NCBI RefSeq assembly: GCF_003287285.1
Contig: NZ_QMIG01000037.1
Location: forward strand, 1 to 43,488
Reading direction: 5' to 3'
Source of the DNA: Phytoactinopolyspora halophila
GTDB taxonomy: Bacteria > Actinomycetota > Actinomycetes > Jiangellales > Jiangellaceae
Length of the DNA stretch: 43,488 nt
Part shown: piece after piece, positions 26,666 through 28,872 of the stretch
Position numbering within the stretch: position 1 is the first letter of the stretch
Layout: each line of letters opens with the position of its first letter
Notes under the pieces: model-generated
What the model saw: the letters and a program-made list of their open reading frames with translations, nothing else
What the model was told of the DNA's origin: nothing
Databases searched by the model: none
Translations under genes and position numbers: made by a program

Positions 26666-26901
26666 GGGACTCCTTATGACGTACGAATAGGTCGGTGCTG
26701 TCGACCACCGGATCTCGAGATCACGTTCGACATCGATCGATCTCAACAAGCCCGAACACGAAAAAGGCCCCGAGCGCAGGGCACGGGGCGGCTGTCATGT
26801 AGATAGACATGACACGTCGTCTTACGTACACCTGCGCAGGCCGTCCACATGCAGCGGAACCTTCGTCGTGCCCTGGGACACGAAACCGGCGGTCTTCGGC
26901 G
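26666..26901 (-). promoter_or_regulatory. L10 leader (rplJL 5' UTR autoregulatory region)
   Basis: A ~236-base untranslated leader runs from the predicted start near 26901 to rplJ. It shows the pieces expected of the ribosomal protein L10 leader family: conserved strings such as CCGAAGACCGCCGG, GAAGGTTCCGCTGCATG and GGACGGCCTGCGCAGGTG on the minus strand, then AAGTAAGACGACG-like sequence, an 8-bp hairpin (26793-26814) and a terminator-like hairpin. In the known family L10-L12 binding to a kink-turn in this leader controls expression. The 411-base gap between rplJ and the hydrolase gene holds this leader, its promoter and a large palindrome. Confidence 0.8.
26761..26789 (-). terminator. attenuator hairpin in the L10 leader
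   Basis: On the minus strand GCCCCG (from 26789-26784) pairs with CGGGGC (26772-26767) and is followed by CUUUUU (26766-26761). This is a canonical intrinsic terminator with a U-tract inside the 5' leader, about 95 bases before the rplJ ATG, so it most likely acts as an attenuator controlling read-through into rplJL. Confidence 0.75.
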
Positions 26902-26936: not shown

Positions 26937-26971
26937 AATGCTCGAACTCCCCACCCCACCGAGCCACCCCA

Positions 26972-27059
26972 GAATGATCATGTTTGGTACGTTTTCTCGG
27001 GCCGTACTACGTCTATAGACGTGTTATGGCCCGAGAAAACGTACCAAACATGATCATTC
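26972..27059. repeat. 88-bp near-perfect palindrome
   Basis: The outer arms 26972-27003 and 27028-27059 are perfectly complementary over 32 bases; the left arm begins GAATGATCATGTTTGGTACG and ends TCTCGGGCC. The centre ACGTCTATAGACGT (27009-27022) is itself a perfect palindrome with the same centre (between 27015 and 27016). Over all 44 pairs only three fail, at 27004, 27007 and 27008 and their partners. It begins 17 bases after the stop of the minus-strand hydrolase gene. It is much more AT-rich than its surroundings and has no terminal U-run on either strand. Confidence 0.95.
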
Positions 27060-27076
27060 GGAAAAGGGGGAGCGGG

Positions 27077-28852
27077 TTACCAGAGGCGAGTGTCGTCTTC
27101 CAGATCGAACGACTGTACGTTCCCGCGCAGTTCGTCCAGGCGTTCTTCCGACCAGCGATGGTCGGGCGGTGCCACGTGGAGCCACGCGTCGACGAGCTCG
27201 CCACCATAGTTGTGCGCATGGCCCTCGGGCATCAGGCCAGACACCGCCATATCGGCAGTGAGCTGCCAGAACGTCACGAAGGGATACCAGTTGAAGTGTG
27301 GCAGCACATCCTCACCGGGCGGCTCGCGTAGCCAATCCGGCTCTGCCCAGATCAGTTCGGGAGACCAGAACGCCACCGGATCGGAAGCGTGCTGCAAGAA
27401 CAACACTCTGGGCTCTTCCCAGCCCGTCGTATCGAGTGGCTGGTGCCAACCGCCCCAGAACCGGACCGTCTGCCCTCCCTCATACACCGGCAGCCGCTCC
27501 AGCGATCCGGGTTCCCGGTTCCGGGTGACCTCTTCTCGTAGCGGGTGCCATCGTGGAGAACCGACCCAGAGAGCGCCGTCAATCTTCGTCCCCAGCTCGT
27601 CGAGGTCTTCGAACGCGGCCGCGCTCCCCACAGCGCCAAAGCTCTCTCCGTAGACGAGCAACCGCGGCCGGGAGTCCTCCGGAAGCCGGGACCAACGTTC
27701 GTAAACGGCGTCGAAGAGTTCCTCACCGGAGATCTCCACCTGTTCGCGTTCGGCCAGGAACGAGAGCCAGCTCGGCAAGTACGAGTACTGGATCGAGACG
27801 ATCGCGCTGTCACCGTTGTACAAGTACTCGAGGGCGTCGGCTGCTGCGTCGTCGACCCATCCGGTCCCCGTTGGCGTGACGACCACCAGCACTTCACGTT
27901 CGAAGCCGCCCGCGCGTTCGAGCTCTCGCACCGCGAGCGACGCCAGCCCCGGTGCCGTTTCGGCCGATTCCATGCCGATGTAGGTCCGTACCGGATCCAG
28001 AGCTGGGCGCCCGCTGAACTCTTCGAGCTCGGCCGCCGTCGGCCCATCGGAGATGAACTCTCTCCCTTTACGGCCCAACGAATCCCAGGTGACCAGCGAG
28101 TCGGGGCCACCGGAGTGAGTGGTGACCGGTGGCGGCCCGCGCTGTGCATCCGTGACTTGATTGATCGCCGCGAACGCGTTGTTGGCCACACCGAGCAACG
28201 ACGGATACAGCACGCCGGTCCACGACCAGAACACGATCCCGGCCACGGCGAGTGCGGACCCGACGACGGCCACCGGGATCGGGACCCAGCGGGACAGGAT
28301 CCGGCCCAGCCAACGTGACGCTCCCCGCAACAACCTCCCTATCGCCAGGAGCCCGACGAATAGGAGGAACGAGAAGAGCAAGATGAGCAAGTAGTGGCTC
28401 GGCCCCGGGCTCCCCACGTCCATGAGCTCCCGGAGTTCACTCTGCCAGCGGGCGGAGGCCACCAGGTACCAGGCAGACCAGCCGGCGACGTTGATGCCCA
28501 ACAAGGTCCACGCGATCAGGACGGTCCGCCGATCCGGCCGCCAGCCTCGTCTGACACGTCGGACGGCGAACCGGATGATGGCGCCGATGAGGGCGCCGAT
28601 GGTATAGCCCACCGCCGCGGTGACACCGGTAACGAGCGCCTGGTAATACCACGTCCGGGGCAGCAGCGAGGGTGTCAGTGACCAGGCGAAAAACGACGCC
28701 GCCCCGACGACACCGGCAAAGTCCAGACGAAGCCACGTCAGCAGCGGTCCGATGACCGGAAGCCGGAGAATCGCCGCGAACTGCCGTTCGACGGCGGGAA
28801 GCTGGCGCCACAACGGCTCCGCGCGCTCATACAGCGCGGACCTCATCGACAT
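27077..28852 (-). CDS. membrane-anchored alpha/beta hydrolase family protein
   Basis: The 591-residue protein resembles the family with an alpha/beta-hydrolase N-terminal membrane domain and a C-terminal catalytic domain (Abhydrolase_9 type); substrate unknown. Residues ~45-235 contain four or five hydrophobic helices (for example SLLPRTWYYQALVTGVTAAV and LLILLFSFLLFVGLLAIGRL). The C-terminal half has the nucleophile elbow GESFG with Ser404; Asp491 (HASDPVAFW) and His545 or His547 (EGHAHNYGG) are candidates for the rest of the triad, an inference from order. The ATG at 28852 has AAGGG eight bases upstream, better than the GTG at 28861. It lies alone between rplA and rplJ, where many bacteria have no gene. 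Confidence 0.85.
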   Translation of the reverse strand: MSMRSALYERAEPLWRQLPAVERQFAAILRLPVIGPLLTWLRLDFAGVVGAASFFAWSLTPSLLPRTWYYQALVTGVTAAVGYTIGALIGAIIRFAVRRVRRGWRPDRRTVLIAWTLLGINVAGWSAWYLVASARWQSELRELMDVGSPGPSHYLLILLFSFLLFVGLLAIGRLLRGASRWLGRILSRWVPIPVAVVGSALAVAGIVFWSWTGVLYPSLLGVANNAFAAINQVTDAQRGPPPVTTHSGGPDSLVTWDSLGRKGREFISDGPTAAELEEFSGRPALDPVRTYIGMESAETAPGLASLAVRELERAGGFEREVLVVVTPTGTGWVDDAAADALEYLYNGDSAIVSIQYSYLPSWLSFLAEREQVEISGEELFDAVYERWSRLPEDSRPRLLVYGESFGAVGSAAAFEDLDELGTKIDGALWVGSPRWHPLREEVTRNREPGSLERLPVYEGGQTVRFWGGWHQPLDTTGWEEPRVLFLQHASDPVAFWSPELIWAEPDWLREPPGEDVLPHFNWYPFVTFWQLTADMAVSGLMPEGHAHNYGGELVDAWLHVAPPDHRWSEERLDELRGNVQSFDLEDDTRLW

Positions 28853-28872
28853 GCGTGCCACCCTTGCGAGAA

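Follow-up and report, generated by a model that had tools for sequence, protein, structure and literature searches.

What an 88-bp palindrome is doing between the end of a gene and the promoter-like site ahead of rplJ is the question raised by the window analysed here, a stretch of 43,488 nucleotides from the genome of Phytoactinopolyspora halophila. The original prediction described 41 of its 44 pairs as complementary, and re-measurement with 44-nt arms gave the same count; because the mismatches fall at pairs 33, 36 and 37 only, the outer 32 pairs are perfect, as had also been claimed. The 17-base gap between the stop codon of the neighbouring gene (hereafter the host gene) and the palindrome is present, as is the rplJ promoter-like site 35 bases past it. 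The palindrome is indeed AT-richer than its surroundings (GC 0.443 vs. 0.638 for the window), and a scan for hairpins with a T-run was empty at the window copy, in agreement with the reported lack of a U-run.

It tops the 19 inverted repeats detected in the window, and the RNA fold of positions 26965-27066 reached -69.2 kcal/mol compared to -22.0 (sd 2.9) for shuffled sequences (z -16). A search of Rfam at E <= 5 returned five matches only, all of them to miRNA-precursor models and all under the gathering scores. A separate, small G+C hairpin followed by TTTTT lies on the minus strand at 26767-26782, past the promoter-like site and ahead of rplJ; it is perhaps part of the L10 leader.

A dispersed repeat family in two forms

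The palindrome belongs to a dispersed repeat family, probably as a non-autonomous member. One of the readings first proposed was that of a mobile palindromic element, for which many copies between genes were to be expected, and the genome search for the arm that had been set beforehand as its check did find many dispersed copies in the genome of the window (G000; 5.04 Mb in 77 contigs, the sole member of its genus in the set). There, blastn gave 82 matches at about 41 places, a search for the arm with up to three mismatches gave 47 and 42 matches vs. 0 in a reversed control, and the 20-nt end of the element, which we call A, was found 85 times at up to two mismatches (78 exact, 6 with one mismatch and 1 with two). 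The places from the blastn and arm searches were examined with about 2.5 kb on either side and then aligned, giving a total of 62 elements: 24 full ones, with A, core and inverted A (Table 1), and 38 polar ones, with A, core and a short end X, which are 79 bp long and in which sequence likeness stops at nucleotide 79. Four core-only places that had no A end (L056, L058, L060 and L061) are excluded from these counts. The consensus of X over the 38 polar copies is C[CG]TGTTACGGC; at their other end, 37 of the 38 start with GAATGATCATG and one with AAATGATCATG. The doubt that the palindrome might be an assembly artefact is countered both by these 62 elements, each at a place of its own in the assembly, and by the copies in other genomes described below. 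Plasmid and phage searches were without a match (the L163 copy against both, the window copy against plasmids).

Table 1. The palindrome of the window and the features around it (positions are those of the window).
Feature	Position	Strand	Remark
Full element (A, core, inverted A), 88 bp	26972..27059	.	one of 24 in G000
End A, GAATGATCATGTTTGGTACG	26972..26991	+	element columns 1-20
Palindromic core	26992..27039	.	variable sequence, pairing maintained through double changes
Inverted end A	27040..27059	-	replaced in polar copies by X
Flank outside the left A end, C-rich and G-poor	26952..26971	+	
Flank between host-gene stop codon and right A end, C-rich on the minus strand	27060..27076	-	
Host gene, 594-aa protein	27077..28861	-	"hydrolase" in the original prediction; 3' end towards the element
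Promoter-like TTGTGA-17-TATGAT ahead of rplJ	26936-26908	-	context, outside the element

The elements lie mostly behind genes. With genes predicted by an in-house codon-usage script, the first 100 bp outside the 86 A ends held a gene 3' end in 60 cases, a 5' end in 14 and neither in 12, and at 18 of the 86 the stop codon fell inside the element itself. None of the 24 full elements was more than 74 bp from the nearest gene 3' end. The polar copies differ between their two sides: of the 38, 29 have a gene 3' end opposite A, 3 a 5' end and 6 neither, the figures for X being 12, 5 and 21. The 20 nt outside A are rich in C and poor in G (0.50 and 0.145, compared to 0.356 and 0.33 at 120 control stop codons), with C at the second base before A in 98% of cases; this bias persists at A ends that face no gene 3' end and is absent past X. 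When the 24 full copies were searched for a target-site duplication none was seen, the junctions sharing no base in 22 and one base in 2; old copies could have lost such a duplication.

Some host genes take their last codons from the repeat: the IspH frame of G000 (L009 and L171) closes with the element's own GAATGA (..ATPSE, then stop), and several further host genes likewise end in SE via the element. In another genome (G256; L244, 2440-2480), a 14-base sequence at the host-gene end, CCCTCTCCCGTTGA, recurs as a direct repeat at end A of the copy inserted there, which may reflect the way in which copies are joined to their target.

The two halves of the element remain paired while their sequence changes. 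Across 43 full elements from six genomes (42 of them distinct), 90.9% of cells were paired and double-sided changes were found in 24 of 41 pairs, a level reached by 0 of 500 shuffles; in the polar core (38 elements) they were found in 13 of 21 pairs, and end A of the polar form is nearly invariant despite having no partner. The mismatches in the polar form were divided about equally between A-C and G-U (38 and 40 with two loose pairs excluded, 42 and 45 with them), and so do not point to selection acting on a single RNA strand; a constraint at the RNA level, which we had considered as a candidate, was set aside since these mismatches favour neither strand. It seems that pairing matters in DNA, or else that it gets renewed by copying.

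By eye, the inner motif of the core recurs in X, both in G000 and in the copies of family f40; in a scripted test over class-wide loci, no more than 12 of 36 ends showed X as a significant third occurrence of that motif. The idea that the C-rich and G-rich flanks form an outer stem was dropped, matched flanks pairing no better than swapped ones (119 of 300 permutations did as well).

Relatives and turnover of host sites

The repeat family extends well beyond one genome. A search of genome_contigs returned 10 stretches with the end, eight from Phytoactinopolyspora endophytica and P. halotolerans and two from unrelated phyla, and a second type of end (up to three mismatches) was matched in all 22 genomes of the taxonomic family of G000 (f1, Jiangellaceae), with 297 matches in G008 and 105 in G001; counts of 1-4 per genome may be chance. 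When 296 genomes of the class were scanned with a covariance model of the full element (R1, trained on a single family), it turned up in 17 of the 22 f1 genomes and in 8 from elsewhere. Copies of 88 bp are again found in other genera and in families f9, f31 and f40, where they also have C-rich flanks and TGAYCACGT- or CGACCACGT-like ends; other lengths among the R1 matches listed were 87 (twice, in G018), 89 (once, in G010) and 82 (once, in G003). A pattern for the f40 lineage matched 26 times in one species and 57 times in another of the same genus (controls 1 and 0); both forms occur among the f40 copies, which lie after genes at 19 of 26 and 37 of 59 ends.

The genes that carry a copy are rarely the same from one relative to the next. 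The element was found after the ortholog of the window's host gene in just 2 of 20 genomes (G000 and G008), for which reason we reject the special role in rplJ regulation that had been suggested, and the remaining G000 copies are placed after other genes. IspH is followed by the element in 1 of the 22 family genomes; in G001, TGATCATGT stands at the IspH stop codon and the remainder of the element is missing, possibly a decayed copy, a precursor or chance. Two genomes of one genus, G168 with 19 tagged genes and G256 with 37, had zero orthologs among them, the sole matches being 31 and 38% identical, and in one syntenic block each of the two carries a polar copy after a gene whose counterpart has none. 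At one filled/empty site of that block the gap that holds the element exceeds the empty one by about 95 bp; at a second the element is absent in the other species and the downstream sequence does not align. The far junctions cannot be placed in these comparisons. Likewise, L219 and L230 have two neighbouring genes in common and different tagged genes. Because the tagged genes differ between relatives in this way (IspH, G168 and G256, the syntenic block), the host sites of the family turn over. The description of the palindrome as "recently mobile" holds for this turnover, but not for the family as such, which is old and spread through the class.

Other palindromes were seen along the way. After an orthologous host gene in G021 (L101) lies an unrelated palindrome of about 95 nt with arms GGTGATCGTGAGCGGATTTTAGCTGCT, perhaps the repeat of another module, and in G020 and G017 (L100 and L102) other short repeated palindromes with CTGATC ends follow orthologs of the host gene, the one in L100 reading CATCTGATCGCC...GGCGATCAGATG. 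In G019, seven copies (L082-L086) join a TTTGG arm to a non-complementary GTGAAG arm, and L154 has the GTGAAG type on both sides; the arms look as if two subfamilies recombine. A single asymmetric source for all G019 copies was considered and dropped, as the seven had been found via one arm type and L154 differs.

A gene for a predicted AbiEi-nuclease protein between facing ends

Seven pairs of A ends face each other at a distance of 1.0-1.7 kb. Three of them, one each in G000, G168 and G256, enclose homologous genes for a protein that we call the AbiEi-nuclease, and a single gene lies between the ends at each of the three loci (L043, L208 and L244). The other four enclose unrelated genes (L040, L229 and two in L243; the L040 gene is peptidase-like, the contents of L229 and L243 being named by eye at most), and the notion of a composite element with cargo was abandoned for this reason. 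The A ends beside the nuclease gene of G000 also lie at the 3' ends of its neighbours, so that flanking in one genome could be coincidence.

With a profile of the three proteins, six genomes each gave a single top ortholog (E 3.4e-107 to 1.6e-174, the next match being 5.3e-39); three of these genomes had supplied the members of the profile, and the three new ones gave 1.0e-124, 4.5e-116 and 3.4e-107. Facing A ends surround the ortholog in five of the six, 171-230 bp ahead of the matched start and 73-151 bp past the stop, and G001 has the upstream end alone. The syntenic block of G168 and G256 in which the polar copies differ also holds the nuclease gene, at a matching position and with six neighbours in common, and the gene therefore acts there as a stable locus.

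With a six-sequence profile at E <= 1e-50 the gene is present in 90 of 393 genomes (other families can carry several weaker homologs). Across the class, flanking inverted repeats were found at 25 of 30 retrieved loci with scores of 21.5-72.5, compared to a maximum of 20.0 over 642 cross-family pairs and 1500 shuffles; the cross-pairs were restricted to different families, since the unrestricted control had outliers of 157-259, probably from related genomes. The 25 flanked loci come from seven families (f1, with 14 of 15, and f9, f26, f28, f31, f40 and f42), and at the other five ortholog loci (G001, with one end only, G026, G092, G265 and G391) a flanking repeat was not found. In G081 (f26) and G215 (f42) the ends are palindromic and quite different in sequence, with one further clear copy each within the 200 kb examined.

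Paralogs may be flanked as well: inverted repeats unlike the window family surround 6 of 16 paralog loci (scores 20.5-47.0), and a search of the 16 for the A motif gave no facing pair and one stray match, in L271. One paralog flank has a further copy in the same genome (L277 in G021, with 67-bp palindromes CGTTGATCATGGGCAGGTG... and the copy in L095).

Gene and repeat also tend to occur in the same genomes. In f1, gene and R1 element occur together in 14 genomes, the gene alone in 1, the element alone in 3 and neither in 4 (p 0.02); the genome with the gene and no R1 element, G009, has 22 matches to the second-end-type pattern. Outside f1 the gene is present in 7 of 8 element-positive genomes vs. 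50 of 266 others (p about 8e-5, Fisher test on G022-G295, counted by hand and with all genomes assumed to be in both samples). The genomes with an element and no gene at E <= 1e-50 are G007, G018 and G004 and, outside the family, G035, and model R1, having been trained on one family, found no element in most gene-positive genomes outside that family.

The partner protein is predicted to join two folds, a DNA-binding one of AbiEi type and a nuclease one that is Vsr-like (PD-(D/E)XK-type). Pfam assigned AbiEi_4 to all three proteins scanned (two over the cut-off, one just below), DUF559 to one of them under the cut-off and no Y1 family to any; the PADLOC AbiEi models matched four of four proteins (best E 8.8e-19, weakest protein 1.7e-5), and NCBIfam gave no match for four proteins. 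A structure model built from 29 orthologs (mean pLDDT 94.4) resembles the AbiEi antitoxin 6y8q (Z 11.3, rmsd 6.1, 182 residues aligned) and Rv2827c (1zel; Z 8.8) over residues 1-198, and the homing enzyme I-Bth0305I (Z 11.2, rmsd 2.8, 97 aligned) as well as 3hrl (Z 10.1) and Vsr (Z 9.7) over residues 203-314. Invariant in all 29 sequences are G205-E206, D238, E249-F-D251-G, K255-Y256 and E273. Actinobacterial proteins of this kind often carry the annotation "AbiEi antitoxin" or "endonuclease-domain protein".

How the repeats may spread, and comparison with known systems

We consider it probable that the palindromes and the AbiEi-nuclease gene make up a two-part system, comparable in its working to REP/RAYT but built on an unrelated enzyme, with the palindrome as the non-autonomous member. 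The AbiEi-type part would bind the inverted motifs of the core (and of X), the nuclease part would nick or cut the conserved A end, and copying in trans would place the hairpin in C-rich DNA at the 3' ends of genes. The core motif, variable between lineages, would act as the address for the AbiEi domain and the conserved A end as the cutting site, so that a stable enzyme gene would be coupled to many mobile palindromes moved by its nuclease, as in the REP/RAYT pair. Once landed, a copy may double as the 3' hairpin of the host transcript, and it may benefit or harm its host. At their own promoters, AbiEi and Rv2827c bind to inverted repeats of 23 bp (PMC7319586), and this fits binding of the core by the partner protein. 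With less assurance, we also favour a broader view, namely that AbiEi-Vsr-like fusions are a new class of repeat-dispersing proteins in Actinobacteria in which each gene copy has its cognate palindrome pair, several modules can coexist and the hairpins go into gene 3' ends.

The alternative that survives best is nonetheless unlikely. It holds that the elements are selected transcription terminators, bidirectional or polar, or stabilising 3' hairpins, kept alike by a factor that reads end A or by gene conversion, and that the flanking of the nuclease gene is simply terminator use by this gene and those next to it. The position and orientation at gene 3' ends, the strong hairpin and the compensatory changes are all in its favor, and the C-rich, G-poor flank resembles Rho loading sites. 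However, a T-run is missing at the window copy and, in the G000 column counts, after the core, which distinguishes the element from an intrinsic (Rho-independent) terminator; the polar form favours neither RNA strand (G-U 40, A-C 38); the sites are not conserved among relatives; and the nuclease gene is flanked in lineages with differing ends, some paralogs having palindromes of their own. The termination or RNase III role first proposed is possible as a side effect. A family of sequence-alike hairpins after stop codons, the TRIT terminators of Mycobacterium tuberculosis, has reportedly been described in the RNIE paper (Gardner 2011). TRIT terminators are also mentioned in PMC3526491.

Quite unlikely, too, is a selfish gene of the homing-endonuclease kind, which would cut empty sites and spread only itself, leaving palindromes behind as deletion remnants. 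The predicted nuclease domain is nearest to I-Bth0305I, and the fused 88-bp form would be expected from core-core recombination around a flanked gene, but each of the six genomes has one top gene copy, syntenic in G168 and G256, and the small copies are many and lie at other genes. Very improbable is a MITE of a classical transposon (DDE or HUH transposase) with the AbiEi-nuclease gene as passenger or frequent neighbour: the elements are short, non-coding and dispersed, have defined ends and, in the manner of a MITE, share these with a gene-bearing element (the facing ends around the nuclease gene), but a single protein family is flanked at 25 of 30 loci from seven families with lineage-differing ends, and no target-site duplication was seen in the 24 full copies.

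To our knowledge, the bacterial pairs of palindromic repeat and dedicated enzyme known so far (REP/RAYT) rest on HUH transposases. If the two-part system is real, a second, unrelated enzyme would mean that repeat-enzyme partnerships arose more than once; it would also assign a role to one set of actinobacterial proteins, account for long palindromes after genes and provide an enzyme that can be tested on a defined DNA substrate. AbiEi matches in defence-system scans would then not have to be toxin-antitoxin systems, PADLOC labelling these very proteins AbiEi. Among the papers listed by our literature searches, no title or abstract opening linked AbiEi or DUF559 proteins with palindromic repeats.

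In comparison with the AbiE type IV toxin-antitoxin systems, the partner is predicted to share the whole AbiEi fold, and its gene, too, is bordered by inverted repeats; unlike AbiE, in which an AbiEii nucleotidyltransferase toxin is adjacent, it has one gene between the ends at the three loci examined, an extra predicted nuclease domain, and repeats that lie on both sides of the gene and are dispersed over the genome. The likeness to Vsr, I-Bth0305I and DUF559 resides in the modelled fold of residues 203-314 with its invariant acidic and lysine residues, whereas fusion to AbiEi and the tie to palindromic repeats set this predicted nuclease apart from Vsr-like enzymes.

The closest comparison is with REP/RAYT. 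REP/REPIN repeats are lineage-specific and thought to co-evolve with the RAYT enzyme (PMC3116915, PMC3733652); the two systems share many dispersed extragenic palindromes, mostly after coding regions, a single-copy gene with repeats alongside (here a top ortholog in six of six genomes) and repeat sequences specific to lineages. They differ in the enzyme, a Y1 HUH transposase in REP/RAYT vs. predicted AbiEi and Vsr-like folds over model residues 1-314 here, in the foot tag, GTAG or CGTC in REP vs. GAATGATCATG or TTGATCACGT-like ends here, and in the unit, which here measures 79 or 88 bp, about 48 bp of it core. As the enzyme is unrelated to RAYT, the palindrome family is not a member of REP/RAYT; it looks like a previously unrecognised bacterial means of scattering small repeats over the chromosome.
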